From positions 1 through 45,228 of IMG/VR virus record IMGVR_UViG_3300029258_001218: a stretch of DNA of 45,228 nucleotides; one strand, written 5' to 3'. Source of the DNA: a virus. The position numbers were made by a program, and so were the translations under genes. The notes under the pieces were generated by a model. The model had not been told where the DNA came from and made no database searches. It saw only the letters and a program-made list of their open reading frames with translations. Numbering within the stretch: the first letter of the stretch is position 1; each line of letters opens with the position of its first letter. Below are positions 10,184-40,679 of this stretch, one piece after another.

Positions 10184-10195
10184 GAGGAGTAAAAA

Positions 10196-11152: not shown

Positions 11153-11158
11153 GGGGGT

Positions 11159-11494
11159 ATGATGAAAAAATACACGGTTACCACTAAAATGAGCCTTGCA
11201 TCCGGGCATATCGAACTTACTGAGGATCAGGCAAGTGTAAGAACTAAGTGCCTTGAGCCTCTTAAGGAAGTGCCCGGAGTCTATAATATCATCGGTAGTA
11301 TAGAATTCAAAGTCGGTGAAGTTATAGGTCTTAGGCCCGCTGCCTCTGATAGGTACATCGAAACGCACACTGAGCTTGTTAAAACAGATGTGCCGGAGAT
11401 GGCTAAAGAGGCAGTTGAGAAGGTAGTGGCTAAGGCTGCGAGTGCGGCTAAAACTAAAGCTAAAACCACAAGGAAGAAGAATGTCGTTAAGTAG
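11159..11494 (+). CDS. Small basic head-region protein (111 aa)
   Basis: GGGGGGT precedes ATGATG. The N-terminal 75 residues are mixed alpha/beta. The C-terminal 40 are Ala- and Lys-rich (EKVVAKAASAAKTKAKTTRKK), likely disordered and able to touch DNA. It sits directly after the capsid gene and overlaps the next gene. Possibly a minor head component. No family recognised with confidence. Confidence 0.65.
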   Translation: MMKKYTVTTKMSLASGHIELTEDQASVRTKCLEPLKEVPGVYNIIGSIEFKVGEVIGLRPAASDRYIETHTELVKTDVPEMAKEAVEKVVAKAASAAKTKAKTTRKKNVVK

Positions 11495-11807
11495 CGAAAT
11501 ACTCTCGGATTTGCCCGTGTTTACCAATACGGACGAGTTTGGCGAGGAGATAACATTTGCCGGTGAGACCGTCAACGCCACACTTGTCGCGGATGACCTA
11601 ACACCGAATTTAGGGCTGAACTCAAACCAAGGCCTCCTGTTTGTGGCGGCATCTGATTTGAGTTCAGTTCCCGAATACCGGGATATAGTAGTTATTTCTG
11701 GAGTTACATGGTACGCCTTTCAGGATGAAAGTGACAGGGTGTACTATGAAGCTAACGGGATGTATATTATTAACATAACTAATAGTGAAAGACCGGAGTT
11801 ACTCTAA
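11481..11807 (+). CDS. Head-tail joining protein candidate (108 aa)
   Basis: I place the start at 11481, where AAGGAAG provides a ribosome site, instead of upstream at 11442. Size and the end pattern, a beta sheet with ISGVTWYAFQDE, resemble gpFII/gp16-type attachment proteins. Position after the capsid gene and before the tail terminator candidate agrees. The family assignment is inferred mainly from size and order. Confidence 0.6.
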   Translation: MSLSSEILSDLPVFTNTDEFGEEITFAGETVNATLVADDLTPNLGLNSNQGLLFVAASDLSSVPEYRDIVVISGVTWYAFQDESDRVYYEANGMYIINITNSERPELL

Positions 11808-12250
11808 TGGATGTTGCGGCGTTAAACACTTCGTTACGTGCGGCCATAGCGGCGTATGCGCCGATTAATGTGTGGGCGAATGATACGTATAGTAAAGATC
11901 ATACGTTTTTAGATAGGCTTGATTCACGGGATACCCCTGGAGAACCTACTTGCCCATATAGTGCACTTGTTTTAACCGGTAAGCAGGCGGGCCAGGATTT
12001 GCGTACTAATTACGGGATGTTTGAAGTATACGCGGTGATAACAGATGCTACTGCTTCTGGGTTAGCTAATCTCGAAGAGTACAGACAGCTTTTAGAGGAC
12101 GCCATGGTTGCGGATGTTAATGGCGGTAATATTAGGTTAAGCGTCGTTGATACGGAATATGATGACCAGAGTTCATATCCGATGATATGGTGTAGTTCAA
12201 AACTTCGTTTTATAGAAGAGAGTACTATCGGAGCGAATCCGTTAAAATAA
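11807..12250 (+). CDS. Tail terminator / minor tail protein U-like candidate (147 aa)
   Basis: The start overlaps the previous stop (TAATG). The protein pattern, a helix (LNTSLRAAIAAYAPINVWA) followed by strands and a second helix (LANLEEYRQLLEDAM), fits gpU-type tail terminators that cap the tail tube and join it to the head. Position between head-tail joining and tail tube genes supports it. The call rests on order and size more than on residues. Confidence 0.55.
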   Translation: MDVAALNTSLRAAIAAYAPINVWANDTYSKDHTFLDRLDSRDTPGEPTCPYSALVLTGKQAGQDLRTNYGMFEVYAVITDATASGLANLEEYRQLLEDAMVADVNGGNIRLSVVDTEYDDQSSYPMIWCSSKLRFIEESTIGANPLK

Positions 12251-12262
12251 AGGAGATATATT

Positions 12263-13228
12263 ATGGCAGTACAGCAAAAAGGTTCAACCGCAGTAGTGGC
12301 GGTCGGTGTTGAAAGTACACCCGGTACGCTCGTAGTAGACGCAGGGTTTGAGCTTCCAATAAATACCGATACAGTGATGGGGGGCTTCGCCAGAAATTCC
12401 CCTGCTACTCTTACTGGTGATCGCAACCCAGTCGTACCGTTTGCGGGCAACAAGGAGGTAACAGGTGATATAGTTGTGCCCCTTGACGATGAAGCGTTCT
12501 GGTATTGGCTGCAATTGGCTTTTGGGGACCCGACTACTTCTGGTGCAGGCGACCCGTATACTCACGTGTTTAAGATCACTGACACCCAGCCAAGTTTTAG
12601 CCATGTGAAAGAGTTTACCGATTTAGCCACCGATAAATGGATGGCCGCTGTTGGGTGTAAAATATCAAGTATGGCTATCGAATTCGGCGGCGACGGGGAA
12701 CTTGTGGCTACTTTTAGTGTAGTTGGGTTTGATGAGACTATAGAAACGTCTAACCCGTTTACCACCCCCCCAACGGCAGTCGCCCTCGATGAGAGGTATA
12801 ATAACTTTAACGCAGTTATTAATGAAGGTGGCGGGGCTAATTCACTAATAAAGACTTTTAGTCTTAATGTTGATTTCGGTCTTGATACCACCCAACGTAC
12901 CATAGCCGGGGCGGGGGCGTTAGGTTCCATACCGGAGGGCATTGTGAGTGTAACCGGAAATATCAAAGGTCTCTTTGAAGATACTGTTATCCTCGAAAAA
13001 GGTAGAGATAGCACTGAGTCAAGTTTGGAGCTTGTGCTAACATCCGCGGTTACTGCGTCGCATATTCTTACGTTTGATATAAATGAGTTACTTTATTCGT
13101 TTAAAACACCGGTTATTGAAGGTCCTACGGGTCTTGATATAGATCTTGATTTTGTTGGGTACTACACCAATGATGCAGCAGCGTCCGCTCTTGTAGTTAC
13201 TAATATCAATGCGAGTGCGCACGCATAA
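12263..13228 (+). CDS. Major tail tube protein (321 aa)
   Basis: AAGGAGATATATT precedes the ATG. The N-terminal half shows tail-tube features: an early GVESTPGTLV segment, the KEVTGDIVVPLDDEAFWYWLQLAFG block and a DPYTHVFKIT turn, as in phage_tail_tube families. A C-terminal beta domain extends it. It polymerises around the tape measure to form the flexible tail. Followed directly by the chaperone genes, as expected. Confidence 0.85.
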   Translation: MAVQQKGSTAVVAVGVESTPGTLVVDAGFELPINTDTVMGGFARNSPATLTGDRNPVVPFAGNKEVTGDIVVPLDDEAFWYWLQLAFGDPTTSGAGDPYTHVFKITDTQPSFSHVKEFTDLATDKWMAAVGCKISSMAIEFGGDGELVATFSVVGFDETIETSNPFTTPPTAVALDERYNNFNAVINEGGGANSLIKTFSLNVDFGLDTTQRTIAGAGALGSIPEGIVSVTGNIKGLFEDTVILEKGRDSTESSLELVLTSAVTASHILTFDINELLYSFKTPVIEGPTGLDIDLDFVGYYTNDAAASALVVTNINASAHA

Positions 13229-13244
13229 AAAAAAGGGGGGGTAA

Positions 13245-13568
13245 ATGAGAACACATGAAGTAAGAGGGATGAAATTCGAGATTAACGGTTTGACAAGAAA
13301 AGCTTTTAAGAAGTTAAAACTAAAAGATTATGGGTATGATTTCTTTGAGATGACTGAAACTCCAGAGGATAAAAAGCCTGGTGATTGTATCGATAAGCTT
13401 ATTGAGGTGACGGTGGCCGGTGCAGACCACAAAAACCTTGATGAGCTTACAGGTCGTGAGTTCAAAGGTTTGTATTACGCTTGTATCAAAGAGTTATACG
13501 GGGCTGAGGAAGAGGAAAAAAACTCATCGACTTCTGGTTCCGCGTCACCAGAGAAGACGAAAAAATAA
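13245..13568 (+). CDS. Tail assembly chaperone, short form, gpG-like (107 aa)
   Basis: AAGGGGGGG precedes the ATG. The protein has an N-terminal KFEINGLTRKAFKKLKLKD and a helical core ending in GLYYACIKELYG, typical of tail assembly chaperones. The last 17 residues are low complexity (Ser, Lys). A slippery heptamer at 13517-13523 lets part of the ribosomes enter the -1 frame and make a 218-aa long form. The G/GT-type pair binds the tape measure and recruits tube subunits. Confidence 0.82.
   Translation: MRTHEVRGMKFEINGLTRKAFKKLKLKDYGYDFFEMTETPEDKKPGDCIDKLIEVTVAGADHKNLDELTGREFKGLYYACIKELYGAEEEEKNSSTSGSASPEKTKK
13517..13552 (+). promoter_or_regulatory. Programmed -1 frameshift site
   Basis: A AAA AAC at 13517-13523 is a canonical slippery heptamer in the right phase (GA[A AAA AAC]). 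Nine bases downstream, TCTGGT (13533-13538) pairs with ACCAGA (13547-13552) across an 8-nt loop, a suitable stimulatory hairpin. The -1 frame stays open from here to 13900. This is the same logic as lambda G-GT. Confidence 0.85.
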
Positions 13569-13606
13569 AGTTCTGCAAAACTTGCAGGACCACCATTAAA
13601 AAAGGC

Positions 13607-13900
13607 GTGAGGAACCCATGTGTAGGTTGTGAGTGGGAGCCGCAGATATTAGAAGTTAACCGTGAAGCATTGCATTTGTGGCTGTCAATTCAGACTATGT
13701 GGGAGTATGCGGGAATGGGTTCGATTGTTGGTCTCAACTATGATCGGGTTGAAAATGAAGCCAGAAGGCAAGAGATCGACCTTAATAGGTGTATGTGGAG
13801 AAAAATAAAAGCTCTTGAAAGATACGAGCTGAATAGGCAGGCTGACGATGAATCCGAAGGTATTAATAAAGGGAGTCGAAAAAACCCTAAGAGGGATTAA
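13607..13900 (+). CDS. C-terminal part of long tail assembly chaperone (-1 frame, gpT/DUF1799-like)
   Basis: Read from the frameshift at 13523, this frame first gives LIDFWFRVTREDEKIKF, then CKTC...CVGC (possible zinc knuckle), then LWLSIQTMWEYAGMGSIVGLNYDRVE, which matches the conserved W...GLDY pattern of chaperone extensions such as DUF1799. The GTG at 13607 lacks a ribosome site, so independent translation is unlikely. The full fusion runs 13245-13900, 218 aa. Confidence 0.8.
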   Translation: MRNPCVGCEWEPQILEVNREALHLWLSIQTMWEYAGMGSIVGLNYDRVENEARRQEIDLNRCMWRKIKALERYELNRQADDESEGINKGSRKNPKRD

Positions 13901-14516
13901 GCAAGCTGAGATTCAGCAATTAAGAAATATAAATACGGCCTTCAGAGTCGAAGGTTTTAAGATGAAGAATGAACTTCAGCAACAGATACGAGATGGGTCC
14001 CCAGGAGGATTTAGGTGGGACCCTCTTACTCAGTTGGCTCGAAGATGGTTCGGTCGCCGTAAAAACAACCCATTACATAAATTAGCGCGCGGTATTAGGT
14101 ACCACGTTCCTAACACTCCAGTTCCGACTCTTCAAGTAGGTTTTGTCGGCCCAGTTAACGCAAGGCAGCACGCTCTTATGGTGAGATCCGGGATTAAACT
14201 CGGGAGTCACGGCGGCTATAGAGGTGTGGCTGTAGGTGGGATGACATCTAATAGTTGGAGGCGGTTAGGGCGTCAGCATCAAAAAGGATTTGAGAAGCCC
14301 ATAACTGAGTCGCAAAGGAGTTGGCTATTTAAGAAAGCAAATAGTATGAGGCGTAGCAACCCGGCTCGTAGAGTGTTTATTCTTAAACCTACGACTACAA
14401 CGTTTAAAACTCCACCAAGATTGATAATAGACCCATTCTGGAATGCCAGGAGGGCGCATACGATTCGTAATATCCGAGAGAATTACCATCGGAAGATGAG
14501 AGGTGTTAAGATATAA
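13848..14516 (+). CDS. Basic minor tail protein candidate (222 aa)
   Basis: Overlaps the chaperone extension by 53 bp. The protein is very Arg/Lys-rich, with long N-terminal helix and a C-terminal NIRENYHRKMRG. In size and location between chaperone and tape measure it resembles minor tail proteins such as lambda gpZ/DUF6441-type. I could not identify a definite motif, so the role is inferred from position. Confidence 0.55.
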   Translation: MNPKVLIKGVEKTLRGIKQAEIQQLRNINTAFRVEGFKMKNELQQQIRDGSPGGFRWDPLTQLARRWFGRRKNNPLHKLARGIRYHVPNTPVPTLQVGFVGPVNARQHALMVRSGIKLGSHGGYRGVAVGGMTSNSWRRLGRQHQKGFEKPITESQRSWLFKKANSMRRSNPARRVFILKPTTTTFKTPPRLIIDPFWNARRAHTIRNIRENYHRKMRGVKI

Positions 14517-17500
14517 TGAGTGATCCTAATCTTCAAATATTGCTTACAGCTAAAAATATGTCTGGTAAGGCATGGGCTTCTATTCAAAAAGATATAAAAG
14601 TGACCACTAAAATGACTAACACCCTTACTAAGTCTATGCGTATGTTGGGTGGGGTAATTGGCGGGTACGGGGTTATACAGCTTGGTAAAAGCTTTTTAGA
14701 TGCAGGTGTCCAGATGGATCGTATGAGACGATCTATGGAGGGCGTTACTGGGTCAGCTACAAAAGCGGCGAGTAATATTAAATTTCTTCGTGATGAGTCC
14801 AATAGGTTAGGTACAGTATTTCAAGATCAGTTAAAAGGTTTTAATCTTATATCCGCCGCCACAAGGGATACCGTTCTTGAGGGCCAAAAAGCGCGGGAGA
14901 TGTACACTGATTTGATGGAGTCAATTACGGCTTTTCAATTGAGCCAGGATGACGCCCATAATTCAGTAAGAGCGATACAGCAAATGCTCGCTAAGGGGAC
15001 AATCCAGGCAGAAGAATTTCGCGGCCAATTTGGGGAAAGAATCCCCATCGCGTTCAAAGCAATGCAGATAGCTACGGGCGCTACAGCTAAAGAACTTCAG
15101 GAGATGATGAAGGCGGGAGAACTACTATCAGTAGATGTCGTTCCGCGGTTGCTTAAAGTTATGAGTCTTTTAGTTGAGCAAGGTGTTGCTACCGCTGTCA
15201 AAGGCGCTCAGGCCGAAATAAATAGGTTAACAAATACCTGGTTTGAGTTACGCGCAACTATCATGGACGCCGGATTTACCGAGGTTATAGCACGGCAGCT
15301 TAATGAGCTTACAACTAATGTTGATAAGTGGGTTAAAAATAATCAGGAAGGTATAAAAGAATTTGTCGAGGGTACCATAGAACTCGGTAGAAAGATAGTT
15401 GAAACTGCGTCCCTCGTTGATCTCGCGTTATTTGATATGTTTGGTCAGTTAACTATTTTTATCACTAATTCAGGTAAGGTGATATTAGCTACGGTAGAGC
15501 ACGTTAGAGAAAATCTCCAAGAAGTACCGAGGTTTTACGCCGGATTCGTCGAAGGGGTGGCGAAGGCGATAGACGCTATCCCCGGAGATCAAAGTATGAT
15601 CACGGATTCTATGCATGACTTTGCAGATGCCATGGGGGACGCTGAAGTCAGCGGTAAGAGCTTAGCTAAAACATATGACGGTATCCGAAAAAATATACAG
15701 AATGAAATAGCGGGGCATCGAAACGCCATCATTCTATGGAAAGAAAGAATTGATTTAGCAGCTAAAGAAAAGAAAGTAAGAAGTGAAGGTAGGGGGGGAG
15801 AAGGCACGAGGACTCGTGCTGAAACGGAAGCAAAGCTTCTTGAAATTAAACGGATTTCTGCGATTCTGAAAGAGTTAAATAAGGATGAGAGAGATCATGC
15901 CGAAGATGTAAAGAAAGCTATCAAGGAGATGCAGGACGCTGAGAAAAAACGCTTACAAATTAAGAAAGAATCCCTTAAAGTAGGAAGAGAGGAAGCGGAG
16001 TTGTTTTTCTCTCAGACTGGTATAGGGGAGGTCGGGGGCATCGCCGGTATAATTACCACAGAACTTCAGAATGTGGCAGTAGAGCAGTTTGCGGACAGAG
16101 TCGGTGATAGCCTTAAGATGTCAGTCAGTAGCGCTCTTACGAGTGTTTTTGGGGCTGGATTTGCGAGTACCTTTGGCGGCGCTGTGACTAACATAGGGGC
16201 TGGTCTCGCGGGCGCGGGTATTAGTGCTTTTATAAGTGGTTTGACGGGCGGAGGGGATTTTGACGCTAAAAGAAGAGCAGAACGGGAACGGGATAAGCGT
16301 ATAATAGAGTCTTTGGAAGAAAATACGAGAGCTATTATTAGAAATACGGAAACAATGACTCGTGAGTATTCCACGTTTTCAACTCAGATATCTGGGTCGA
16401 TGACGGATATTACAAAGAGTTTTTTCGATACATTGGTCGGGTTACAAGGAATCAATAGAGCCTCGGCATTCGGGTCGTTTGATGTTGGTGATATAAAAAG
16501 CGGAAGGTTAATTAAGTTTGTTAGAGAGTTTATTAGTAGAAATATTGAATTAGGCATAGATGACTCTGCGATGCATGCTTTTTATTTGAATTTTGAAGCT
16601 TCTCTTAATGAATTCGTTACCCGTATTAATTTGGTACAAGGGGACATAATCAAGAATTCGAAAGATATGCTTGAGGAGGCCGGGGATGTATTTAAATCTG
16701 AGGCTGAGATTCAAAAACGAAAATTCAATGAATCAAGTAAAGATTTACTTATAGGGTTAGCTGAAACTTTCGAGACAGAAGGTATCTACACCCAAGAGGG
16801 TGTCGATATTCTTAATTTGTTTACTGATGCCGCTGATCTTGCTAATTTTATGTTAGCTACTTTAGTCGAAGGGACTGAAGAATATAATCAGGTTCTTGAG
16901 GTAAGTACTAACCTTATTGAGACAGCTATACTCCAAGAGAAAGCCCGGTACCAAGCGCTAATTGATGGTTTGTCGGGGTTAAGAGATATTCAGGATGATA
17001 TTCAATTCAGGTTGTCGGGCCTCGGTCGTGAGGACTGGATTAAATCCCAACTCGATGGGTATGGTGAGATACTTAGCAGGGTCGGGCAGCTTACTGAGGA
17101 TGAATTCAGGGAAGCCACAGATCTCGTCACAGAGATGTTTACGTTAAGGATGCAGGAAGAGCAACAGATCATAAACGATTGGAAAACAGTTGCGGATAAG
17201 GTTAAAGGTTTAGTATCCACAATTAGAGACGCGATGTTAACGATTAGGTACGGACCCCTTAATGTTGCTTTAAATAAGGATAAATTACCGCTTGCGCAAC
17301 AGGACTACGAGACATTACTGGCTGAAGCCCAGACCGGAGATGAAGAAGCAATTCGCAAGTTTGTTGATTTTAGTTCTCAGTATCTCCAGGTGGCGCAGAA
17401 TACGTTTAAATCATCTGAGTCGTATAGGAGTATATACCAGAGCGTGATGGATGATCTAAGTGAGATGAATGAGTACATGCAAACCGAGGACTACAGCCAG

Positions 17501-18052
17501 TTGCTATACAACGAAACTGTTAGTATAGTTGACGAACAGAAATTAGCTAACTCAGTATTAATGGATATAAGAGCAGATTTAAAGTATTACACGGACGCTT
17601 TAATGGTTGCGGCAGCGGCAGGGTCTGCCCCTAATCCCGACCCACCGCGTCCACCTGATTTAAAGACACTTGATCTTCAGGAAGTTACTAATTGGATTAA
17701 GGTTAACCAAGGTAAAGATGCAGCTCGTGAGTTTTTAGGTAGGGTGCCGGATTTAGGGACAATCGATCTTTTTGAGTATATTAAATCTCTTGGGGTGCCG
17801 GGGTACGCCGATGGTGGCTACGTTAGCAGGCCAACTCTCGCAGTAGTCGGGGAGGGTGCAGGGGGCGAGTATATAATCCCAGAAAGTCAGATGACTCAGA
17901 TTATAGATAGAGCAAGTGGGGGCAGCCAAACCCAGAATATAACAATTATGATAGGCAGCGAAGTGCTTGAGGCGGTTGTACTTCGTACGAACGGGGACCA
18001 AGTTATTAAAGCAAAGCGAAGAGGTCGCGCCGCGGTGGGGGTTTATAGATAA
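14516..18052 (+). CDS. Tail tape measure protein (1178 aa)
   Basis: Sets tail length and is ejected with DNA. The N-terminal region has the tape-measure signature EEFRGQFGERIPIAFKAM and DVVPRLLKVM (TIGR02675-like). It is followed by long helical coiled-coil segments (about 390-500), a Gly/Ala-rich hydrophobic membrane-spanning stretch near residues 530-580, more coiled coil, and a C-terminal GYADGGYVSRPTLAVVGEG and GGEYIIPESQM motif common to tape measures. At about 1.5 angstroms per residue the tail would be near 175 nm, a textbook-ratio estimate only. Confidence 0.95.
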   Translation: MSDPNLQILLTAKNMSGKAWASIQKDIKVTTKMTNTLTKSMRMLGGVIGGYGVIQLGKSFLDAGVQMDRMRRSMEGVTGSATKAASNIKFLRDESNRLGTVFQDQLKGFNLISAATRDTVLEGQKAREMYTDLMESITAFQLSQDDAHNSVRAIQQMLAKGTIQAEEFRGQFGERIPIAFKAMQIATGATAKELQEMMKAGELLSVDVVPRLLKVMSLLVEQGVATAVKGAQAEINRLTNTWFELRATIMDAGFTEVIARQLNELTTNVDKWVKNNQEGIKEFVEGTIELGRKIVETASLVDLALFDMFGQLTIFITNSGKVILATVEHVRENLQEVPRFYAGFVEGVAKAIDAIPGDQSMITDSMHDFADAMGDAEVSGKSLAKTYDGIRKNIQNEIAGHRNAIILWKERIDLAAKEKKVRSEGRGGEGTRTRAETEAKLLEIKRISAILKELNKDERDHAEDVKKAIKEMQDAEKKRLQIKKESLKVGREEAELFFSQTGIGEVGGIAGIITTELQNVAVEQFADRVGDSLKMSVSSALTSVFGAGFASTFGGAVTNIGAGLAGAGISAFISGLTGGGDFDAKRRAERERDKRIIESLEENTRAIIRNTETMTREYSTFSTQISGSMTDITKSFFDTLVGLQGINRASAFGSFDVGDIKSGRLIKFVREFISRNIELGIDDSAMHAFYLNFEASLNEFVTRINLVQGDIIKNSKDMLEEAGDVFKSEAEIQKRKFNESSKDLLIGLAETFETEGIYTQEGVDILNLFTDAADLANFMLATLVEGTEEYNQVLEVSTNLIETAILQEKARYQALIDGLSGLRDIQDDIQFRLSGLGREDWIKSQLDGYGEILSRVGQLTEDEFREATDLVTEMFTLRMQEEQQIINDWKTVADKVKGLVSTIRDAMLTIRYGPLNVALNKDKLPLAQQDYETLLAEAQTGDEEAIRKFVDFSSQYLQVAQNTFKSSESYRSIYQSVMDDLSEMNEYMQTEDYSQLLYNETVSIVDEQKLANSVLMDIRADLKYYTDALMVAAAAGSAPNPDPPRPPDLKTLDLQEVTNWIKVNQGKDAAREFLGRVPDLGTIDLFEYIKSLGVPGYADGGYVSRPTLAVVGEGAGGEYIIPESQMTQIIDRASGGSQTQNITIMIGSEVLEAVVLRTNGDQVIKAKRRGRAAVGVYR

Positions 18053-19719
18053 TGACGGTTTTAGTCACAGTTACTTTTGATGATGATGAAACAGTACGTA
18101 TTTCAAATGAGGAAGTAGCGGATACGAATTACTGGGAGCCATGGCTTTTGGCGATCGATAATATATCATTTAGTTTGGAGTATCCCTACGGCGGGAATAG
18201 AATCGCGGAGTGGGGTAGCCTCAAAATAAGTAATAAGTTATTTACGAATGAGGATTATATTTGGCCCCCTCCTTTATTCATATCTCTTAAAGTTGAGTAT
18301 ACCTCATCAACCGAGGCTTCGGCTGTCACACTTGTTGAGAATGCTACAGGACAGTTTTCTAATATGGATGAGTTTGGGGTACAATATGACGTTTATCTTA
18401 ATGAGACAGATGGGGTGTTACTACTTGAGAAAACATCTAATTTAGATGGGGCTTGTACTGCGGATTTTAACGGGAATGACGTGGTACTTCCAAGAGCAGT
18501 CGGGACAGTTGATTACGCCCCTGTTATTAGGTTGGAAAATTACTCAGGTAACGCTGTTTTTCACACTGGGTACATGAATGGCACAATTAATGTAGACTGG
18601 TTTGTGTGGGATGATGGCGTTGACATAACAGCGTCTTGCACCGTCGGCGGATCGGGTACATCGGGTACAGGTACTTTTTATCGGAGTGCCGCGGCAGTCG
18701 GTGAAGTTACAGTATCGGGAAACGGCACATTTGCAGCAGCGAGCACCATGACTCAAGCTATTGACGCGTTAATGACCGCCCGACTGGGAGCGGCGACTAT
18801 AGTTGGGACTAACGCCCGCTCTGGCGATGCTAAAGTAGGCCACTGGGCTACATCGCAAGAGCTTTTAATTAGCTACGTATCGAGGCTATGCGCGAGTCAT
18901 GCGCATATTATATCTATAACCGATACTTCTTCTTTTACGGCGTACTTAATTAAGCTTGAAGAATTCTACACCCCAACGTCAGAGGCGTATCAAGATACTA
19001 AGATTCTCCCAGTCGGACATGAGATAAACCAAGGCCCTGTTTCTGTGGTTAGAACGACTTGGCCCGAACGAGAGCAGGTGGATGAAGGTGGTAGACTATT
19101 TGTCAAGGAGACTACGAAAGAAACAGAGCGTAGCAATTCTAAATATTGGTGGGGTACGACTACAAGCACCCTTACTGATAAGTTAAAGTCGGATCTTTCT
19201 AACACCGCATGGTTTAATAGATGGCCGGGGTACATTAGTGCAGGAGTCGTGGGGTTTATAGGTTCGGACATGCTAAGACCTGGGATGTATGTTAAGAATG
19301 TCACAGATAACACGAGCACGACTGTAGTTGCGTTCGACAGTTATGTTCAGTTATCTATAAATGATGATATATTTACAAGCGGGGAAGATTTTGAAGTAGG
19401 GTATGAATTTAAACACGGAAGGGAATTATCGGTAAAGTCTTTTTCTACAGATGTCAGTACAATTGAGGATAACCTAACGTTTATAATGAATTTCATGCAT
19501 GCGAGGCAGTCGGACCTCGTAATTCCATTAGAGGACGTTGAATCTTCATCATTAGCGGTGTTCGGTAGAGAGGGTAGGTATGTGGCCGAAGAGAGGCGGT
19601 ACGCGAGACCTTTGTACCTTAATTATAATAAAATTATCGGGATAGTATACGATTTTGAGAATGAAAAAGTTACGTATCGTATCGCTGGGATGGTATTCGA
19701 GGAGAACCTGCTAACATGA
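18052..19719 (+). CDS. Distal tail protein (555 aa)
   Basis: First gene after the tape measure, overlapping its stop (TAATG), which is where distal-tail or baseplate hub proteins are encoded. Beta-rich, with an N-terminal domain mentioning an edge pattern WEPWLLAIDNISFSLEYPYG and WGSLKISN. No lambda M/L/K/I/J signature is recognisable. Likely part of the tail tip. It overlaps the next gene by four bases. Confidence 0.65.
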   Translation: MTVLVTVTFDDDETVRISNEEVADTNYWEPWLLAIDNISFSLEYPYGGNRIAEWGSLKISNKLFTNEDYIWPPPLFISLKVEYTSSTEASAVTLVENATGQFSNMDEFGVQYDVYLNETDGVLLLEKTSNLDGACTADFNGNDVVLPRAVGTVDYAPVIRLENYSGNAVFHTGYMNGTINVDWFVWDDGVDITASCTVGGSGTSGTGTFYRSAAAVGEVTVSGNGTFAAASTMTQAIDALMTARLGAATIVGTNARSGDAKVGHWATSQELLISYVSRLCASHAHIISITDTSSFTAYLIKLEEFYTPTSEAYQDTKILPVGHEINQGPVSVVRTTWPEREQVDEGGRLFVKETTKETERSNSKYWWGTTTSTLTDKLKSDLSNTAWFNRWPGYISAGVVGFIGSDMLRPGMYVKNVTDNTSTTVVAFDSYVQLSINDDIFTSGEDFEVGYEFKHGRELSVKSFSTDVSTIEDNLTFIMNFMHARQSDLVIPLEDVESSSLAVFGREGRYVAEERRYARPLYLNYNKIIGIVYDFENEKVTYRIAGMVFEENLLT

Positions 19720-20435
19720 AATTTATCCCTACAAGTAATATTGTATCAGTATCGGCGACTGCGGCGGATGCTACATATATTGACGATTGGGTGCTTGAAA
19801 CTAATAAGCCTAAAAAAGTTTGGAAAGCAGTTACTGGGGTGGCGGGGCTATGGTTAGAGGTTTCCGCGGGTGATTGTGTTGCGTTATATAATCATAATTG
19901 TGATACTGTTAATGTATACATATATAATTACGCCAAGACTGCAATCATAGATGGACCCTATAACAATGACTTAAGTTCTTATTCCTATGGCAATGATCGC
20001 TTGTGGCAAGAATACGATCCCCAATCTTCACCTTTTTATATTTATATTTCATTTCAAGCAGCGCGGACAATCCCCGCGTATTGTGGTGTAGCATGGGCGG
20101 GGAATATGGTGGAATTTACCAATCCTGATAAAGAACTTTCTCTTGGGTACGAGGATTACTCAATTGATTATATAATGTCTTCTCGGTCTACGAGGCAAGT
20201 TGAGAAAGATATTAAGAAGAAGTTTACCAGCAATTCTCTCTTGACTCTTGAGGATGATTGGTTCGATGTCATGCAGTCTATTAAAAATTATGTTGGGTAC
20301 TCTACAGTTCCATGGCTTATTATGGACGATCAGTTTATAACACATAATATCCTTGGTTATATAAGTGATTTTAGCCTCGGAGCGCATAACTATGCATTTA
20401 AATCCAACCTACCTTTGGAGGTAGTGGAACGATGA
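19716..20435 (+). CDS. Tail-tip associated protein (239 aa)
   Basis: Overlaps the genes on both sides by four bases (ATGA). The protein is beta-rich and aromatic, with VSATAADATYIDDWVLETN at the start and a jelly-roll-like middle. Close coupling with the tail proteins around it suggests a tail-tip component. No family recognised. Confidence 0.6.
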   Translation: MKFIPTSNIVSVSATAADATYIDDWVLETNKPKKVWKAVTGVAGLWLEVSAGDCVALYNHNCDTVNVYIYNYAKTAIIDGPYNNDLSSYSYGNDRLWQEYDPQSSPFYIYISFQAARTIPAYCGVAWAGNMVEFTNPDKELSLGYEDYSIDYIMSSRSTRQVEKDIKKKFTSNSLLTLEDDWFDVMQSIKNYVGYSTVPWLIMDDQFITHNILGYISDFSLGAHNYAFKSNLPLEVVER

Positions 20436-21664
20436 AAGTACTAAAGACCGATAATACTGAGTATATTTTTGCTGACAAACAGTTAGTCGATGATTCTGAC
20501 GTTTCGGTTACTAACTACGGGCGTTTGTTAGAAAATATGTCAGACGATTATCCAGCTAATTATACGGCGTTTGATTTAGGGTCAACTCGTATAATTGAAG
20601 TACGTACTTCTAACTCAGAGATTGTGGGGTTGGCGGGCACTAACGCGTACGACATTGAGTCTTATATCGGCGAAGGTACGATACATGATGTGAATGACGT
20701 TGTAACTGATGGTACTTTCCAGAATTGGACAGGGGGGGTGCCTGATGATTGGACAGTTGAGGCTAACGCGGATGTGTCGGAGGGTACCGAGAGTGTGAGT
20801 ATCGGGGGGTACGCGTATACGAAGTACCTACGTATGGTTGATCCTAACACGAGTTCGGATATTGCCGTAAAACAAACGATGGCGGTTAGTAGTAATCAAA
20901 AATATATTTTGACTTTAATCGGGCCACAACAAGAAACGCCGAGTAATAAATTTTCTATATACGATGAAACTAACGGCAGTTATATAAAAAGTAACCAATC
21001 GATTGGGAGTCCCTACTACCCTGGTTTAAGTTCTGCTATACCCGACGCGACATACTATGAGATTTTTACCACTCCAAGTAACTGTGTCTCCATAACACTT
21101 CGATTGTGGGTAATAGACTATGTAAACTCCCGTTTTGATTTTAGGGGGGTGTCTATACGCCCGGTAACCCAGCAAACCACAGTCACAATTGATAATGATG
21201 GCGGGGTGTTTAGCGATGAAGATTTTAATACTATTCCGATTGAGTACACTAAGGTGGTGGGCGACCACAGTATCTTTTTAGATGCTACTGCAAGTTCATC
21301 CCCTGTTAAAGTCGGGTGCCTCCAAACAGGACTCCTTACAGAATATCTTGATCCTAAGCAGGGTATGCGCCAGGGGTTGCGCTTTGATAGCGTACTGACG
21401 GATCTTAAGTACGGTGGGAGGTTAATAGATACAAAGTATAATAAAGATGTTTTCCAGGGGTCCATTACGCTCTCTGAGGCGGACGCAAATGATTTTATGT
21501 ACTCATTAGTACCGACGATACGAAGGTCACCGAGATTTTGGATTCTGGGCGATATATCCGAACAGTATTGGTCTGTGTTTGCTAAGTTCGATACGCTCCC
21601 GGTGGCATCTAAAAATAACAACATAACTGACACAATAACCGTTAACTTGGTGGAGGCTATATGA
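20432..21664 (+). CDS. Tail protein with carbohydrate-binding-like insert (410 aa)
   Basis: The N- and C-terminal parts look like a tail-tip protein. Residues about 85-250 read as an inserted jelly-roll module (VVTDGTFQNWTGGVPDDW, KQTMAVSSNQKYILTL, then FDFRGVSIRPV) of the CBM4/9-like type seen in phage receptor-binding proteins. The module pattern of an opening GTF..W and a closing FD.V.I recurs in the following genes. Receptor contact is a reasonable inference. Confidence 0.65.
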   Translation: MKVLKTDNTEYIFADKQLVDDSDVSVTNYGRLLENMSDDYPANYTAFDLGSTRIIEVRTSNSEIVGLAGTNAYDIESYIGEGTIHDVNDVVTDGTFQNWTGGVPDDWTVEANADVSEGTESVSIGGYAYTKYLRMVDPNTSSDIAVKQTMAVSSNQKYILTLIGPQQETPSNKFSIYDETNGSYIKSNQSIGSPYYPGLSSAIPDATYYEIFTTPSNCVSITLRLWVIDYVNSRFDFRGVSIRPVTQQTTVTIDNDGGVFSDEDFNTIPIEYTKVVGDHSIFLDATASSSPVKVGCLQTGLLTEYLDPKQGMRQGLRFDSVLTDLKYGGRLIDTKYNKDVFQGSITLSEADANDFMYSLVPTIRRSPRFWILGDISEQYWSVFAKFDTLPVASKNNNITDTITVNLVEAI

Positions 21665-21686
21665 TAGGTACGCACTGGAGGGTGGT

Positions 21687-21983
21687 ATGATGGATGATGT
21701 GAAAGGATGGTGGGCTATTGTCATTGGTCTTGTAACAGGTGGTGTGGGTGTGGGTGTGACAGCCCGGAAAGTACAAACACACGATCGTGTTTTGTTTCAG
21801 GAAAAAGGTGGGTTAAATGTGGTTGACGTCAGTACCTGTAAAGAGAAGATGGGCGAGTGTAGACGGCGTATCTCGCAGGATGTGGGGAATATAGTTAGGA
21901 AAGAATTACAGGCGCATAACAAGCAAGATAATATAGATTTAATTTTAGAAGAATTACGTAAACTTAATAAGAAGGAGGAGTAG
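21687..21983 (+). CDS. Single-span membrane protein, holin- or spanin-like candidate (98 aa)
   Basis: GGAGGGTGGT precedes the ATG. Residues about 8-26 (WWAIVIGLVTGGVGVGVTA) form one N-terminal membrane segment. Two cysteines and a long charged helix (LQAHNKQDNIDLILEELRKL) follow. The topology resembles small lysis-region proteins. It is far from the hydrolases at 26.8-27.7 kb, so holin or spanin function is only a guess. Confidence 0.55.
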   Translation: MMDDVKGWWAIVIGLVTGGVGVGVTARKVQTHDRVLFQEKGGLNVVDVSTCKEKMGECRRRISQDVGNIVRKELQAHNKQDNIDLILEELRKLNKKEE

Positions 21984-21984
21984 T

Positions 21985-22464
21985 ATGAAACGACTCATAA
22001 TAGCAATGCTGTTGGTAGTATTTGTGACAGTTACGGCGCATGGTGCGGGTACTGTGACGGTAACAGGTCCAACTAAGGTCCATAACACTCAGTACGTCGT
22101 GGTATTCACATGCACCGCGGATGCCGCAGATGGTAGTTATCCTCAAACGGATATTAATCAGGACTACGCACGCATGCTGAATGACCTTGAGGGATTTTGG
22201 CTTAGTCATGTTAAGGTAACACCCGACGCTACAACAGCACCAGTGGATGATTCTGATTTGGCGCTCACCGTTGGTGGTACGGATATCCTTGGTGGTAACG
22301 GGGTAGACATTGTAGACAACGCGGTAGATGGGTATTGTGTGCCTTATGGTTCCAGTAATGATGCCCAGTACCCTATGACGGTCGGCCACAATATGAAATT
22401 AGTAATTACAGGTAATACGACTAATAGCGCGGTAACGGTAGTGACACTCGTATTTGAAAACTAA
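21985..22464 (+). CDS. Exported beta-rich phage protein (159 aa)
   Basis: GAAGGAGGAGT precedes the ATG. The N-terminus is a Sec signal peptide (MKRLIIAMLLVVFVTVTAHG, cut probable after AHGA or GAG). The mature part is beta-rich and resembles small phage beta proteins with a TVTVTGP start and ALTVGGTDILGGNG core. Signal peptides on virion-region proteins are unusual. It opens a group of four exported products. Confidence 0.7.
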   Translation: MKRLIIAMLLVVFVTVTAHGAGTVTVTGPTKVHNTQYVVVFTCTADAADGSYPQTDINQDYARMLNDLEGFWLSHVKVTPDATTAPVDDSDLALTVGGTDILGGNGVDIVDNAVDGYCVPYGSSNDAQYPMTVGHNMKLVITGNTTNSAVTVVTLVFEN

Positions 22465-22473
22465 GGCGGTATT

Positions 22474-23679
22474 ATGAAAAAATTAAATCTATTAATATTA
22501 GTGTTGGTGTTGGCGTGTATTACTGGGTTTGCCCACCATAACGATAGAAGGTTTTATTTTAAGGGCGGCGGGTTTTTCTCAGGTGATTTATACCAACGTA
22601 ACACAGACACAACCTTCTCCGAAATCACAACCGGCGACTCCCACGAAATCAGTGAGATCACGGCGGCTGATCCTGCGGTTGTGACCTTTGCTGGTGGTGA
22701 TGAGCTTGTTACTGACCCCACATTTGATACTGCTTGTGGAGTTAATTGGGCTTGTAGTGCTGGGTGGACTATATCTGGCGGAACAGCTACTCATTCAGGT
22801 GCCGCAGGAGATCTTTATCAGCCAAGTATTGGGGCAGTATCAGGGGCATGGTATAAAATAGTTTTTACTATATCAGGCAGAACAGCAGGAGGCATGACTG
22901 TAAAATTTGGTAATGACACTGTTGTTGGCTTCATAGCAAATGATAATACCTATACCTATTATCATGAGTGTGTAGATGTTGGCCTTGATAGATTTAATTT
23001 TTATGCTAATGCAGATTTTGACGGTAGTATAGATAATGCATCCGTCAAACTCCTCCACGACTACGCCGCCAAAGACGTGATCTCAATCGGAGGGGTTGAG
23101 AGTGAGGCGCTGGGGGCGGATCTTGGGGATGATTGTGCGAGTGATAATACAGGGGATTGGCAACAAGTAGATTGTACCCTTACATTTGATACAGATCATT
23201 ATGAAATAGATTATGTTGCAAATACTCAGTGGATCAGAAAAACAATCTCATACACTTCTGGGTCTTGGTATAAATTACAGTATAGTGTAAAAGATGGTAC
23301 AGCGTCAGGTGAGTCCATACGATTTTCTGATATAAATACCGGATTAAACCCTAACATAACATATTCGGCAACAACAACAGCGTCATGGGTAACCCACACG
23401 CAGTATTTCCAAGCAGATGGTAGCAGCAATAGGGCTGCTTTTTTCACTGAATTAACAGCTGGTAATATTGAGATTAAGGCTATATCGCTCGAAGAAATCC
23501 CTCCCGTCCTCGCAAAACCCTACCGAATCGACTCAATCGACGCTAACGGAGTCTGCACCCTACTAAACGCAGATTTCTCAGGCCTCACGACGAACATAAC
23601 GAGTGGATACTGGATATGGACCCGACTCCGGTTAATTCGAATAGTGAGTTTGATCAGTGGAGCTATTCTGCGGAGCTAA
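22474..23679 (+). CDS. Exported protein with two carbohydrate-binding-like modules (401 aa)
   Basis: Signal peptide at the N-terminus (MKKLNLLILVLVLACITGFA, cut after GFA). Two jelly-roll-like modules follow: about 85-195 (TDPTFDTACGVNWACSAGW to DNASVKLL) and about 210-345 (DLGDDCASDNTGDWQQVDC to IEIKAISLEEI). Cys pairs in each could form disulphides outside the cytoplasm. The last 20 residues look out of frame, and the next gene starts inside this one in another frame without a good ribosome site, so the two may be one broken gene. Confidence 0.65.
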   Translation: MKKLNLLILVLVLACITGFAHHNDRRFYFKGGGFFSGDLYQRNTDTTFSEITTGDSHEISEITAADPAVVTFAGGDELVTDPTFDTACGVNWACSAGWTISGGTATHSGAAGDLYQPSIGAVSGAWYKIVFTISGRTAGGMTVKFGNDTVVGFIANDNTYTYYHECVDVGLDRFNFYANADFDGSIDNASVKLLHDYAAKDVISIGGVESEALGADLGDDCASDNTGDWQQVDCTLTFDTDHYEIDYVANTQWIRKTISYTSGSWYKLQYSVKDGTASGESIRFSDINTGLNPNITYSATTTASWVTHTQYFQADGSSNRAAFFTELTAGNIEIKAISLEEIPPVLAKPYRIDSIDANGVCTLLNADFSGLTTNITSGYWIWTRLRLIRIVSLISGAILRS

Positions 23680-24752
23680 TTATTGCTTCTGATAATAGGG
23701 ATTTTACCACTTGGGGTAACGTAGATTGGGCAGGTGAAGCGGGAGCCTCTGTAGCAGACGGAACGGGCAAGATGCAAATAACTCTTGATAGTAGTGGTGA
23801 GTCTGGGGCGCGTCTATCTACTGGCATAATAGGTGTTGACGAGGCAGGTACCTGTGTTAGTCTAACGCTTGAGATTTGGCAAGGTACTACCTCAGAGACT
23901 ACTTTTAGAATTAGGTATGGTAACGGTTCAAACCCGTATTATGAGGATATTACAATTGATGGAGTTGCGAATACTTCATATGCTGTGACGTTGGTTTCTA
24001 ATTTCGCTAATCCTGGCATATACATTACTTGTCTTTCGTCGGATTCCGGGACACTTTTTGTTGATAATGTTTCAGTCACGGAGATAACCCCCGATTCCTT
24101 CACCGTATCAGGCCTAAGTGCTACAAATTACTTGGTCTATGATACGAGTGCGAATACTGTGAGGTTTGTGAGTGATGGGAGTAATCTCTATTTAAGAACA
24201 GATAGCACTATTGCTGATGATAGCCAGTACTTTTATGAGGTAGGAATTTCTGCTAATGCCGCTGTCCGATTAATATTATATAGCGGTGGCGCTATTGAGA
24301 TTATGGATGGGTTAGAGACTGGGCATTTTCAAGGGTTTTTGACTACTGAGAGCACTACATTAGACTTAAGAAGGTCTGGAAGCTGCAACGTCACAGCCAG
24401 CTACTTCCGCCTGTACAAAGCCGAGGACACATATGCTGTTTGTGATGGGAGTCAGAGTGCTGTGTCAACCCTATTAAGTAACGAGTTCTGGGTACTCAAT
24501 AACTTCGGGTATAAATTTGTTACTACTGTCGGTGCTATTGACGCGGGTAGTCTAACACCTATCGCGGGTACTGGATACGGGTCTGCCATCACAGGGACGG
24601 GGGTGAACACTCAGAATGTAAGAGGGCGTACTACATATGAGTACGCGGGTTTAGAAGCTTCAACCGCCGCTGAAGGCGTTAAAGTGACGGAATTAGTCAT
24701 ATATAGGTATAAAGATTTATGGGGTCAATGGAATGTATGGGGGGATCAATAA
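23616..24752 (+). CDS. Adhesin-like protein with a third carbohydrate-binding-like module (378 aa)
   Basis: Overlaps the previous gene by 64 bp in a different frame. It has no signal peptide and no strong ribosome site, which suggests a frameshifted continuation. Residues about 20-155 form a jelly-roll-like module (NRDFTTWGNVDWAG to SGTLFVDNVSVTEI). The remainder is beta-rich and ends in YRYKDLWGQWNVWGDQ. If joined to the upstream frame, the product would be about 760 aa, a plausible fibre or adhesin. Confidence 0.6.
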   Translation: MDPTPVNSNSEFDQWSYSAELIIASDNRDFTTWGNVDWAGEAGASVADGTGKMQITLDSSGESGARLSTGIIGVDEAGTCVSLTLEIWQGTTSETTFRIRYGNGSNPYYEDITIDGVANTSYAVTLVSNFANPGIYITCLSSDSGTLFVDNVSVTEITPDSFTVSGLSATNYLVYDTSANTVRFVSDGSNLYLRTDSTIADDSQYFYEVGISANAAVRLILYSGGAIEIMDGLETGHFQGFLTTESTTLDLRRSGSCNVTASYFRLYKAEDTYAVCDGSQSAVSTLLSNEFWVLNNFGYKFVTTVGAIDAGSLTPIAGTGYGSAITGTGVNTQNVRGRTTYEYAGLEASTAAEGVKVTELVIYRYKDLWGQWNVWGDQ

Positions 24753-24772
24753 TGAAAAAGGAGATATTAATA

Positions 24773-25114
24773 ATGAAATATTTTATTGTGGTATTAATGG
24801 CAATGGCATTGACGACGGGTACGGCGAACGCGGATCTAAGTGAAGCAGATTACGTAAGTATGACCACAAAGATGGAGCGGCTACATGCTGCCCGTGAAGT
24901 TCACGCGGAGTTCCAAGGCTTTATCACTGATATTAAAGCCCGAAGAGCACGGATATTGGAGTACAAAACTACTCTGGGTATCGCGGATACGGTTATTCCA
25001 GTGGGGTACATTGACACTGCTACTGATTTCTATCAATTCTTGGGAACTGTACAGGGGGTGGCTGAGACTGATTATAAGGTATTCCTAACAGGAGATGATG
25101 GCGTGGAGGAGTAG
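24773..25114 (+). CDS. Exported helical protein (113 aa)
   Basis: I choose ATG 24773, since AAAAAGGAG at 24755-24763 fits it and the protein then begins with a clean signal peptide (MKYFIVVLMAMALTTGTANA, cut after ANA). The mature part is helical and charged (MTTKMERLHAAREVHAEF). It lies two bp from the next exported protein. Possibly a periplasmic partner of the tail adhesins. Function unknown. Confidence 0.65.
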   Translation: MKYFIVVLMAMALTTGTANADLSEADYVSMTTKMERLHAAREVHAEFQGFITDIKARRARILEYKTTLGIADTVIPVGYIDTATDFYQFLGTVQGVAETDYKVFLTGDDGVEE

Positions 25115-25115
25115 C

Positions 25116-26825
25116 ATGTTTAAGACAAAGAAAGCATTATACGGGTACCTGCTCGTAGGCACGCTCGCTATTGTGGCAGTCGCTTGGGCAGCCACAATTG
25201 AGCTTACCTCGACACCGAGTAGCGGGTTTAAGATATCTGATTTTAACCAGATTAAAACTATGATTAATGGGTTGGCGGATGATATACTTACTGCTTTTCC
25301 GGTCGATAGTCTTATCGGCGATACAGTCGACGACGATGTCTTAGATCAGCCACAAATAAATATTATCAATGATACCACTACTGAGATACCGATGACTATC
25401 AAGGAAGTTGCTTCTCAAACGGCGGACAACCTTAAAGTAACGGACTCCAATGATGTTACTCTTCTTGAGTTTTTAGCCGGGGGCGGTTTTAGTAACAAAG
25501 AAGGTATGAGGACTGTTACTACTCAGTTTGGGGCTGGATTAGGCGTGCAGCTATATGGGGAAGATGTACCGGAGCATACTAACCAATCTGGGTGGTATGA
25601 TCATGCGGGCGGTACTCAGGATATGTTATTTACCAAAACGTCTGGGGATGCTTTCACCCAAGAAGACGCCGATGACGGGACCCACATCTTGCTAACTAAC
25701 TTCTCTGGTGCATTCCCGATGGCCGAGATTAAGGAGTACATAAGCGCTACGCAAGTAGTGGTTCACGGGTACTGTTGGGATGATGATATCGGTTCCGGTG
25801 GGTCCCCGCTGACATTCTTATCGCTATCGCATCCGTCGTTTATAAGCGCAGACTGCGCCGAACATGAATTTAGCGTAGAGGATACCGGGTCGTTTGAAGT
25901 CCACAGCTACGATTTCACTGGTACCTATGTGGCGGAGTTTGAATTAGATTCAGCGGCAGACGGGACAGATACGGTCTTAGTTAAAGCGGAAGCTCATGGG
26001 TATAACGGCGTCCAGGCGGGGGTGTTCGATTATCAGGCAGGTGACCTACAACCCGGAGACACGGGTGGCGCAATAGGCGCGAGAGTGGATGTATCTGGGG
26101 CTGCATCCGCGGACGCTACGACTGAGGTTGACGCTTTTATAGCGGTAGTCGTAAATGGATCAGGTGCTACTACAACCGCTTATCGTGCGCTACCTGGGTT
26201 TACTAATTTTTTATCTGTCGTAGGTTCCACGATAAAAGATATGGATTATGGATATACAGTAGATAGTGGTGTAGTTACGGATCGAACCGCAGCTTTTGCG
26301 GCTACCGGAACTAACGTAGTTATGTTTGCGGCGGATAATGATTACGTAGTCTATGGGGATGACGATACATTTGAGATAATCAACGTCGTACTTGCAGTAG
26401 CTGCGTCAAATTTAGGTGTTCTCCCGTCATTTGAGTATTCAACCGGTAACGGGACCTGGAGTATCTTAACACTCGCCTCAGATGGCACAACCGGGTATTC
26501 GTCTAATGGACCTATATCCTTTGATGCCCCAGGTGATTGGGCTAAAGGGAATCAGCTTGAAGCCCCAGCGGATATAACAAGCGCGTATTTAGTAAGAGTT
26601 ACAAGGACGCGGAATACGCTGCCACAAGTTCCGACTGAGTCTATTATGCGGATTTACGAGAGTAGAGACTTAGGTATGTACATACGAGGGGATGGCGTGG
26701 TTAAACATCCTTATTTGGGAGCCGCCCCCTCTAATTTGGTGAACGGTATGGAATGGATGGAAGCGGATGGAAAGCATGTGTACTATAATGGTACTGAACG
26801 TTTATTGTCAGACGGAGCACCGTAG
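25116..26825 (+). CDS. Tail fibre-like protein with N-terminal hydrophobic segment (569 aa)
   Basis: Start chosen at 25116 with GGAGGAG at 25105. Residues 4-27 are KKALYGYLLVGTLAIVAVAWAA, either a signal peptide or an anchor. Then DFNQIKTMINGLADDILTAFPVDSL is a fibre-like oligomerisation segment. Repeated beta domains follow, and the C-terminal third has features of phage fibre ends (FEYSTGNGTWSIL, YLGAAPSNLVNGMEWMEADGK). Probably receptor-binding or host-surface-related. Confidence 0.65.
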   Translation: MFKTKKALYGYLLVGTLAIVAVAWAATIELTSTPSSGFKISDFNQIKTMINGLADDILTAFPVDSLIGDTVDDDVLDQPQINIINDTTTEIPMTIKEVASQTADNLKVTDSNDVTLLEFLAGGGFSNKEGMRTVTTQFGAGLGVQLYGEDVPEHTNQSGWYDHAGGTQDMLFTKTSGDAFTQEDADDGTHILLTNFSGAFPMAEIKEYISATQVVVHGYCWDDDIGSGGSPLTFLSLSHPSFISADCAEHEFSVEDTGSFEVHSYDFTGTYVAEFELDSAADGTDTVLVKAEAHGYNGVQAGVFDYQAGDLQPGDTGGAIGARVDVSGAASADATTEVDAFIAVVVNGSGATTTAYRALPGFTNFLSVVGSTIKDMDYGYTVDSGVVTDRTAAFAATGTNVVMFAADNDYVVYGDDDTFEIINVVLAVAASNLGVLPSFEYSTGNGTWSILTLASDGTTGYSSNGPISFDAPGDWAKGNQLEAPADITSAYLVRVTRTRNTLPQVPTESIMRIYESRDLGMYIRGDGVVKHPYLGAAPSNLVNGMEWMEADGKHVYYNGTERLLSDGAP

Positions 26826-26843: not shown

Positions 26844-27188
26844 ATGATAATAAGAGTAAAAGATTGGGAGACACTTACTTCAATTAGGGTGCCGTGGCAC
26901 TTTAAACTTGAAGAATTATTTATGTGGATATGTGAGCGTAAAGATGACGTACTCATAACATGTGGGTACGAGGATCGTAGCTACCCGTCTGTTCATTCAG
27001 TCTTACCTCTACGAGGCCTTGATATTCGCTCGCGAATTTATATGGACCCTGGTAAGCTATGTAGCCAGATAAATGCTGCTTGGTCATACGACCCTGTACG
27101 CCCACTTAAACCTTGTGCTTTATACCACAACACTGGCAGAGGTAACCACATTCACCTACAAGTATGTACGGAGACTACTAAGATATGA
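26844..27188 (+). CDS. M15-like peptidase, probable endolysin (114 aa)
   Basis: GGGAGG precedes the ATG by 14 bp. VHSVLPLRGLDIR matches the SxHxxGxAxD zinc motif region of M15 D-Ala-D-Ala peptidases, and GNHIHLQV matches the terminal HxH. These would be His, Asp and His zinc ligands. It should cut peptidoglycan cross-links or stem peptides at the end of infection. At 114 aa it is compact, a minimal domain. It overlaps the next gene by four bases. Confidence 0.72.
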   Translation: MIIRVKDWETLTSIRVPWHFKLEELFMWICERKDDVLITCGYEDRSYPSVHSVLPLRGLDIRSRIYMDPGKLCSQINAAWSYDPVRPLKPCALYHNTGRGNHIHLQVCTETTKI

Positions 27189-27724
27189 TAGAATTAAGAC
27201 CAGGGGATGTATTCCTTACAACGAATAGCCGGGTGTTAAACGCTCCAATACTATTCTTTCAGAAGTTATGGAGTAAAGATGGCAAAGCAACGTACGGGCA
27301 CGCGGGGGTTGTCATAGATGAGCGTGGCACCACATTTGAATCTTTGTGGAAGGTAAGATCTCGAAATATATATGATGCATGTAAAGGGAGACCGGTATTC
27401 ATAGCCCGTCATGTTAATATGAATCCGACTACCTGTAAGAACATATATAACCGATTAGAAAAAGAATATGGAGGGGATCATTACCCAATATACAGATTGT
27501 TGTTCCACATATTCCCACCTGCTTCTCGGATAGCCACAAATAAAGTGGTTTGTTCGGAGTTGGTGGCTAAATTCATGTTGTACTCAGGCATCGGCATGGG
27601 GTACTATAACGGAGTCAACCCGGATGATTTACATGACTTTTTTAGGGTAGCTAAAGACTGGAAGATCATATTCGAGGGCGCGCTGCCGACTAAACGTAGG
27701 AGTAAGTTACTTCGTCGGCATTAA
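27185..27724 (+). CDS. Permuted papain-like NlpC/P60 (YiiX-type) hydrolase (179 aa)
   Basis: LRPGDVFLTTNS, then YGHAGVVID (His), then NKVVCSELVAKFM (Cys) is the circularly permuted papain fold order, with His before Cys, as in YiiX/LRAT-like enzymes. Such enzymes cut amide or ester bonds, often in cell-wall or lipid substrates. Overlapping with the M15 gene, it probably acts in lysis or as a host-envelope modifier. Its 3' end overlaps the lipoprotein gene on the opposite strand by 18 bp. Confidence 0.72.
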   Translation: MIELRPGDVFLTTNSRVLNAPILFFQKLWSKDGKATYGHAGVVIDERGTTFESLWKVRSRNIYDACKGRPVFIARHVNMNPTTCKNIYNRLEKEYGGDHYPIYRLLFHIFPPASRIATNKVVCSELVAKFMLYSGIGMGYYNGVNPDDLHDFFRVAKDWKIIFEGALPTKRRSKLLRRH

Positions 27725-28051
27725 TTCTATACTATCGAACCTGCCTATATCATAAGTACATACGGGTACCACATCCCATTCGTATTCATGGCGGTCTTCG
27801 TGCGCCTTAAAACCATGGTTGTGGCGGTTGGCCCAAGCTACGGCTTCTTCTAAACTATCGTAGTATACTGGAAAAATATAGTCTTCAAAGATCCGTACGG
27901 CAAACCGACCTTCAATAGATAATATCTCGTATCTTTGGGGGATACATACTTCTACTGGTTCTGGGGTGCCTATATCATATAGTATATCATCGCTTCCGCC
28001 TTCTGAACATGCAACTACCAATAACAAGGATAATACTATTAATACTTTCAT
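27707..28051 (-). CDS. Lipoprotein (114 aa), convergent lone gene
   Basis: The N-terminus MKVLIVLSLLLVVAC is a lipoprotein signal with lipobox VVAC and Ser at +2, which predicts outer-membrane sorting. AAAGG sits about 9 bp before the ATG. The mature protein is acidic and has further Cys residues (VCIPQ, PVCTYD) that may pair. It lies beyond the terminator of the replication operon and so is separately controlled. Candidate roles are superinfection exclusion or spanin-like lysis function. Neither is shown by sequence. Confidence 0.7.
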   Translation of the reverse strand: MKVLIVLSLLLVVACSEGGSDDILYDIGTPEPVEVCIPQRYEILSIEGRFAVRIFEDYIFPVYYDSLEEAVAWANRHNHGFKAHEDRHEYEWDVVPVCTYDIGRFDSIELMPTK

Positions 28052-40591: not shown

Positions 40592-40679
40592 GGCTATCGA
40601 AGCAAGGAAGAGAGAATTAAACCCACAATATAATAGACGGTCGGTAGATCGAAAGGCGGAACGCGATGCACGTAAATGA
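40533..40679 (+). CDS. Small basic protein (48 aa)
   Basis: GGAGGTGG precedes ATG 40533. A short hydrophobic helix (YYTSLILSQIIKAASIKAI) is followed by a basic tail (RRSVDRKAERDARK). It overlaps the radical SAM gene by 14 bp. Possibly a leader or partner peptide of that enzyme, but this is speculation from position. Confidence 0.55.
   Translation: MKPYYTSLILSQIIKAASIKAIEARKRELNPQYNRRSVDRKAERDARK

Follow-up and report, generated by a model that had tools for sequence, protein, structure and literature searches.

Predicted Sec-exported fibre-type proteins encoded between the tail and lysis genes of a tailed phage

A run of genes lying between the tail genes and the lysis genes of an uncultivated tailed phage very probably encodes exported proteins, and a like arrangement in an unrelated phage suggests that export of fibre-type adhesins out of infected cells is found in some phages. 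The window analysed, which is the whole IMG/VR record IMGVR_UViG_3300029258_001218 with a length of 45,228 b, was recognised as a tailed phage by TerL, portal, protease, major head protein and tape measure genes. Genes are designated here by the first position of their reading frames (Table 1). The initial annotation had pointed to Sec-type N-termini on the products of 21985, 22474, 24773 and 25116; all four reading frames are present, and all four products were called as carrying signal peptides, with starts supported by Shine-Dalgarno sequences. The genes, all on the plus strand and with short or overlapping junctions, follow in the order tape measure, tail genes, 21687, 21985, 22474/23616, 24773, 25116 and 26844. 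The three tail genes behind the tape measure gave no match in the family search and are assigned to the tail tip or hub by their position, which also makes the product of 21687 appear holin-like. Gene 26844 carries the motif His...Asp...HIH, which we take to mark an M15-like peptidase. Its product gave no match in Pfam and is a probable M15-type endolysin, which suggests a host with peptidoglycan, monoderm or diderm alike. Inverted repeats of a DNA inversion switch were sought in addition, and none was convincing.

Table 1. Positions of the cluster, of its neighbours and of the signal-peptide genes in a second phage
Feature	Position	Strand	Basis
Tail tape measure protein (context)	14516..18052	+	PHROG tape-measure families, best 1.2e-32
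Three tail genes (18052-19719, 19716-20435, 20432-21664)	18052..21664	+	Behind the tape measure; no signal peptide call
Small protein with one N-terminal transmembrane segment	21687..21983	+	TM19 1.69 at residue 8; no family
Exported small beta-domain protein (predicted)	21985..22464	+	Signal peptide call, Shine-Dalgarno, tblastn match to MetMV
Exported fibre/adhesin, first part (predicted)	22474..23610	+	Signal peptide or lipobox, CBM-like modules
Frame switch (-1) from ORF 22474 to ORF 23616	23605..23679	+	Codon log-likelihood by frame
Probable C-terminal continuation of the fibre begun by 22474 (export predicted); no signal peptide of its own	23616..24752	+	
Exported small charged protein (predicted), mature 93 aa, no Cys	24773..25114	+	Signal peptide call, Shine-Dalgarno
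Exported large fibre-like protein (predicted), two Cys (C220, C247)	25116..26825	+	Signal peptide call, Shine-Dalgarno
M15-like peptidase (presumed)	26844..27188	+	Motif
Small lipoprotein, separate gene	27707..28051	-	Lipobox MKVLIVLSLLLVVA followed by C
Four signal-peptide genes of IMGVR_UViG_3300036770_001780 (G001)	L028:6461-7018, 7005-9464, 9476-9940, 9965-10225		

Signal peptides were scored by a heuristic which combines a von Heijne-type matrix with rules for the h-region and for charge; of 12 known signal peptides used as positive controls, all 12 were called. The four cluster products show the sequence features of Sec export, namely a charged n-region (+1 to +3), a hydrophobic h-region (mean hydropathy 2.7-3.7) and small residues at positions -3 and -1, and in each the N-terminus is the most hydrophobic stretch, exceeded by no internal one. 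Three of the products have plausible cut sites, the best being TANA before D in 24773 (sigcleave 8.6), AWA before A in 25116 (10.3), and VTA before H or AHG before A in 21985, where the predicted signal peptide comprises residues 1 to about 18 or 20. The cut site of 22474 is ambiguous and could be GFA before H or a lipobox with VLA before C15. Ribosome-binding sites precede the methionine which opens each signal peptide, with aaggaggagtagtATG for 21985, aaggagatattaataATG for 24773, ggaggagtagcATG for 25116 and the weaker aaggcggtattATG for 22474, and the longer reading frame starts at 24719 and 25095 lack a well-placed Shine-Dalgarno sequence.

Of composition-preserving shuffles, 1-2.6% received a signal peptide call, and at most 0.015% received one of equal strength. 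Within the window 6 of the 62 genes were called, these being the four cluster genes, the lipoprotein gene 27707 and a doubtful 43464, and upon permutation of six calls among 62 genes four came to lie within five neighbours in 0.6%. In other phage loci, the background omitting locus L028 and its duplicate L045, there were 12 calls among 438 genes (2.7%) and the longest run was 1, compared with a run of 4 in the window when 22474 and 23616 are counted as one gene.

This count rests on the codon preference, which as log-likelihood by frame switches at about 23,605 from the frame of 22474 to that of 23616. Over its final 22 residues ORF 22474 does not look coding, and no good Shine-Dalgarno sequence was found upstream of ORF 23616. 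Probably the two are one fibre gene, with a frame break which is either real or derived from assembly, and in this case every protein of the cluster would carry a signal peptide. A programmed frameshift at 23,605 is not favoured, as no slippery heptamer was seen. Another contig, IMGVR_UViG_3300017989_000446, is 100% identical to the window over 8,052-23,610 and then ends, so that the frame break at 23605-23616 coincides with its end at 23610; strain variation, a module swap or an assembly problem might lie behind this.

The mature domains resemble parts of virions. Residues 78-193 of 22474 align with the C-terminal tip of the RC1 central tail fibre J (Rhodobacter phage RC1, 43% identity) and with a tail component of Thiobacimonas phage P1 (37%). 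In the J proteins of RC1/RS1 and in the P1 protein this module ends a large tail protein without signal peptide and contains no cysteine, which sets them apart from 22474. Residues 33-157 of 21985 are 38% identical to AZF89954 of Methanosarcina virus MetMV (tblastn, E 8e-11), which in contrast to 21985 has no signal peptide; its gene lies ahead of a fibre-like gene and directly behind one for a protein of about 3,000 residues, whose size and position let it be interpreted as a tail protein. The cluster proteins with their signal peptide calls thus differ from these signal-less relatives. Near fibres related to that of locus L028, together with the Thiobacimonas P1 region, there were only 2 marginal calls among 94 annotated coding sequences and none on a fibre. 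Homology to a fibre module was found for 22474 only, with no relatives found for 25116 and 24773; 25116 is judged fibre-like by eye. Searches of IMG/VR and GTDB contigs yielded no close relatives of the exported proteins besides the identical contig, tblastn against INPHARED with 25116, 18052, 24773 and 23616 no match, and sequence searches of the PDB no match either.

Jelly-roll modules had been proposed for two products, which is tentatively supported for 22474 by its homology to the RC1 J tip and only weakly for 23616. AlphaFold2 single-sequence models of 25116 and 22474 were poor (pLDDT 33 and 39). With the low-confidence 22474 model (mean pLDDT 39), Foldseek against the PDB returned CBM4, CBM29 and CBM6 as top matches, a BFVD search diffuse matches only, and Pfam gave DUF642 below the cut-off (E 0.004). 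The paired cysteines reported before are C88/C94 and C221/C234 in 22474, and 21985 has two, C43 and C118. Mature cysteine counts are even throughout, with 2, 6, 4, 0 and 2 in 21985, 22474, 23616, 24773 and 25116, and the 22474 module contains three cysteines where its 21 relatives have none or one. Even counts and extra module cysteines are suggestive of disulphides, though not proof.

The module of 22474 was followed through 21 other viral loci. In almost all of these the reading frame that carries it, in many cases a tail protein, has no convincing signal peptide. The one exception is the unrelated phage IMGVR_UViG_3300036770_001780 (G001, 94 kb), where four consecutive genes again carry signal peptides (locus L028). 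Like in the window, a putatively CBM-like module resides in a large fibre-type protein with small signal-peptide neighbours, order and kind (small protein, large modular fibre, small proteins) are alike, and mature cysteine counts are even (2, 4, 0 and 2); the module is the only sequence shared. The large protein matches PHROG virion-structural and tailspike families (E 1e-52 and 8e-33). Unlike in the window, its fibre has tailspike-type repeats and the cluster lies ahead of the terminase gene, near a holin-like gene and TerL, with portal and head-protein genes further on. Only one other gene, a doubtful lipoprotein, was flagged in the parts of G001 read, and when genomes were scanned a second time, for the small L028 protein, no match appeared. 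This recurrence is taken as independent evidence, at the level of sequence, that the exported-fibre design would be real and selected. G001 also encodes a 1739-aa protein (L047:3193-8412) that combines NUDIX and ADP-ribosyltransferase domains and might be a virion protein delivered by injection. In another phage L036:6970-7626, PKD/Ig-like by eye, is a single signal-peptide protein directly ahead of module-bearing tail genes, possibly a one-gene version of the exported design, and in Microcystis phage vB_MaeS-yong1 a lipoprotein gene (L012:12616-13401) lies directly behind tail genes.

Export and a carbohydrate-binding build are thus supported by the signal peptides, the placement of the ribosome-binding sites, the even cysteine counts, the position between tail and lysis genes, the signal-less homologues and the recurrence in G001. 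Phage proteins directed to the periplasm or surface had been suggested from the outset; crossing of the inner membrane and modules of CBM or tail-tip type agree with this, with superinfection block, glue and virion coat as candidate roles. Tentatively, with somewhat less than even confidence and by a modest margin over the rival readings, we favour occupancy of the receptor or envelope. Tail fibres are normally built inside the infected cell. Here, Sec signal peptides would divert proteins of tail-fibre or adhesin type from the cytoplasm. Expressed late from the same-strand tail-to-lysis block, as the gene order suggests, they would be translocated across the inner membrane with loss of the signal and presumably fold in an oxidising compartment, where their CBM-like tail-tip modules may bind glycans of envelope or surface. 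A stock built up in the envelope and set free at lysis could occupy the sites to which the phage itself adsorbs, both on the infected cell and on its debris.

Such masking would be functionally like that by Llp of phage T5, an exported phage protein which blocks adsorption, also to fragments of lysed cells (PMC9586334), but would act through fibre modules. Receptor occupancy is preferred because there is a precedent for phage proteins exported to this end (T5 Llp, PMC9586334) and no unprecedented assembly step is needed. The cluster proteins share with T5 Llp and T1 Cor that they are phage-encoded and exported, by prediction in the case of the cluster, to act on adsorption in the case of Llp and Cor (PMC9586334), and differ from them as these are small lipoproteins without fibre modules. 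None of 21985, 24773 and 25116 is a small lipoprotein, and 22474, despite its possible lipobox, is a large protein; outside the cluster, gene 27707 would encode a small lipoprotein with a lipobox, as Llp and Cor are. Against masking it is to be considered that Sec alone reaches only the periplasm in a diderm host, so that masking of the outer surface before lysis needs another step, and that big multi-module fibres look over-built for this task. Moreover, the exported modules had no detectable similarity to the phage's own tail proteins, and a receptor common to both is therefore only supposed.

The strongest rival, which we hold to be unlikely, is that the exported proteins are true virion appendages, folding outside the cytoplasm, possibly with disulphides, and docking onto particles at or after lysis. 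Their domains derive from virion fibres and tailspikes, their size is fibre-like, the only fibre recognised among the G001 proteins tested is the one bearing a signal peptide, and the small signal-peptide proteins next to the fibres might act as chaperones or linkers. Fibres of T4 and P22 moreover attach in vitro to finished particles. Particles of tailed phages mature in the cytoplasm, however, dilution after lysis disfavours late docking, and the non-exported tail-tip genes 18052-21664 may already provide the receptor-binding protein.

Less probable still are exported adhesins with another extracellular purpose, such as glue to matrix or neighbours, aggregation or exclusion of other phages, or moron-like cargo. 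The CBM-like modules, as read from a low-confidence model, would fit this, and the gene for the exported protein Lom of lambda lies inside the tail operon; Lom is an outer-membrane beta-barrel encoded by a single gene, unlike the cluster. The cargo reading is countered by a GC content uniform with that of the tail genes and by independent promoters in the cluster at chance level only, which is unlike typical cargo. It is improbable, too, that the N-termini are uncleaved hydrophobic helices of proteins assembled in the cytoplasm, for example for membrane insertion at DNA delivery. The ambiguous cut site of 22474 and the heuristic nature of the predictor leave room for this reading; against it stand three classical n-h-c architectures with plausible cut sites, the signal-less relatives in other phages, and the run of four such genes both here and in L028. 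Chance or an assembly artefact, to which the coincidence of frame switch and contig end near 23,605-23,610 would lend local assembly or strain variation as a cause, is very improbable in view of the identical second contig, which spans the first two signal peptides, the uniform composition of the gene run and the run statistics.

If the proteins are exported, either the modules of tail fibres are put to a second use apart from the virion or tail fibres can be attached by a route outside the cytoplasm. The annotation of receptor-binding proteins in environmental phages would then change, as a fibre-like protein with a signal peptide would not imply a host gene. The export question becomes testable through the recurrence in an unrelated phage. 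The broader proposal that some tailed phages have receptor-binding fibres or decoy copies of them Sec-exported, disulphide-bonded and assembled or acting outside the cytoplasm is regarded as rather doubtful. As far as found in the open-access literature, an extracytoplasmic fibre pathway is undescribed for tailed phages. The remark in the initial annotation that no named system has this design is consistent with full-text phrase searches, which as weak evidence of absence yielded no relevant description of exported tail fibres.

Further genes of the window merit mention. Behind the peptidase gene, 27185-27724 encodes a 179-aa protein which by eye resembles a permuted NlpC/P60 (YiiX-type) peptidase, with no match in Pfam. 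The lipoprotein gene 27707-28051 has its own direction of transcription at the operon border. Upstream of it lie a promoter-like site (28158-28130) and a terminator-like hairpin (28098-28077), and its product is a candidate superinfection-exclusion lipoprotein or spanin part. The product of 40666-41388 is a radical SAM protein weakly similar to MoaA/QueE, and DNA modification is a possible role. At 43734-44396 a hexapeptide-repeat protein is found (left-handed beta-helix, Pfam Hexapep 1.5e-33), the repeats of which are specified by an array of tandem DNA repeats around 43784-44181.
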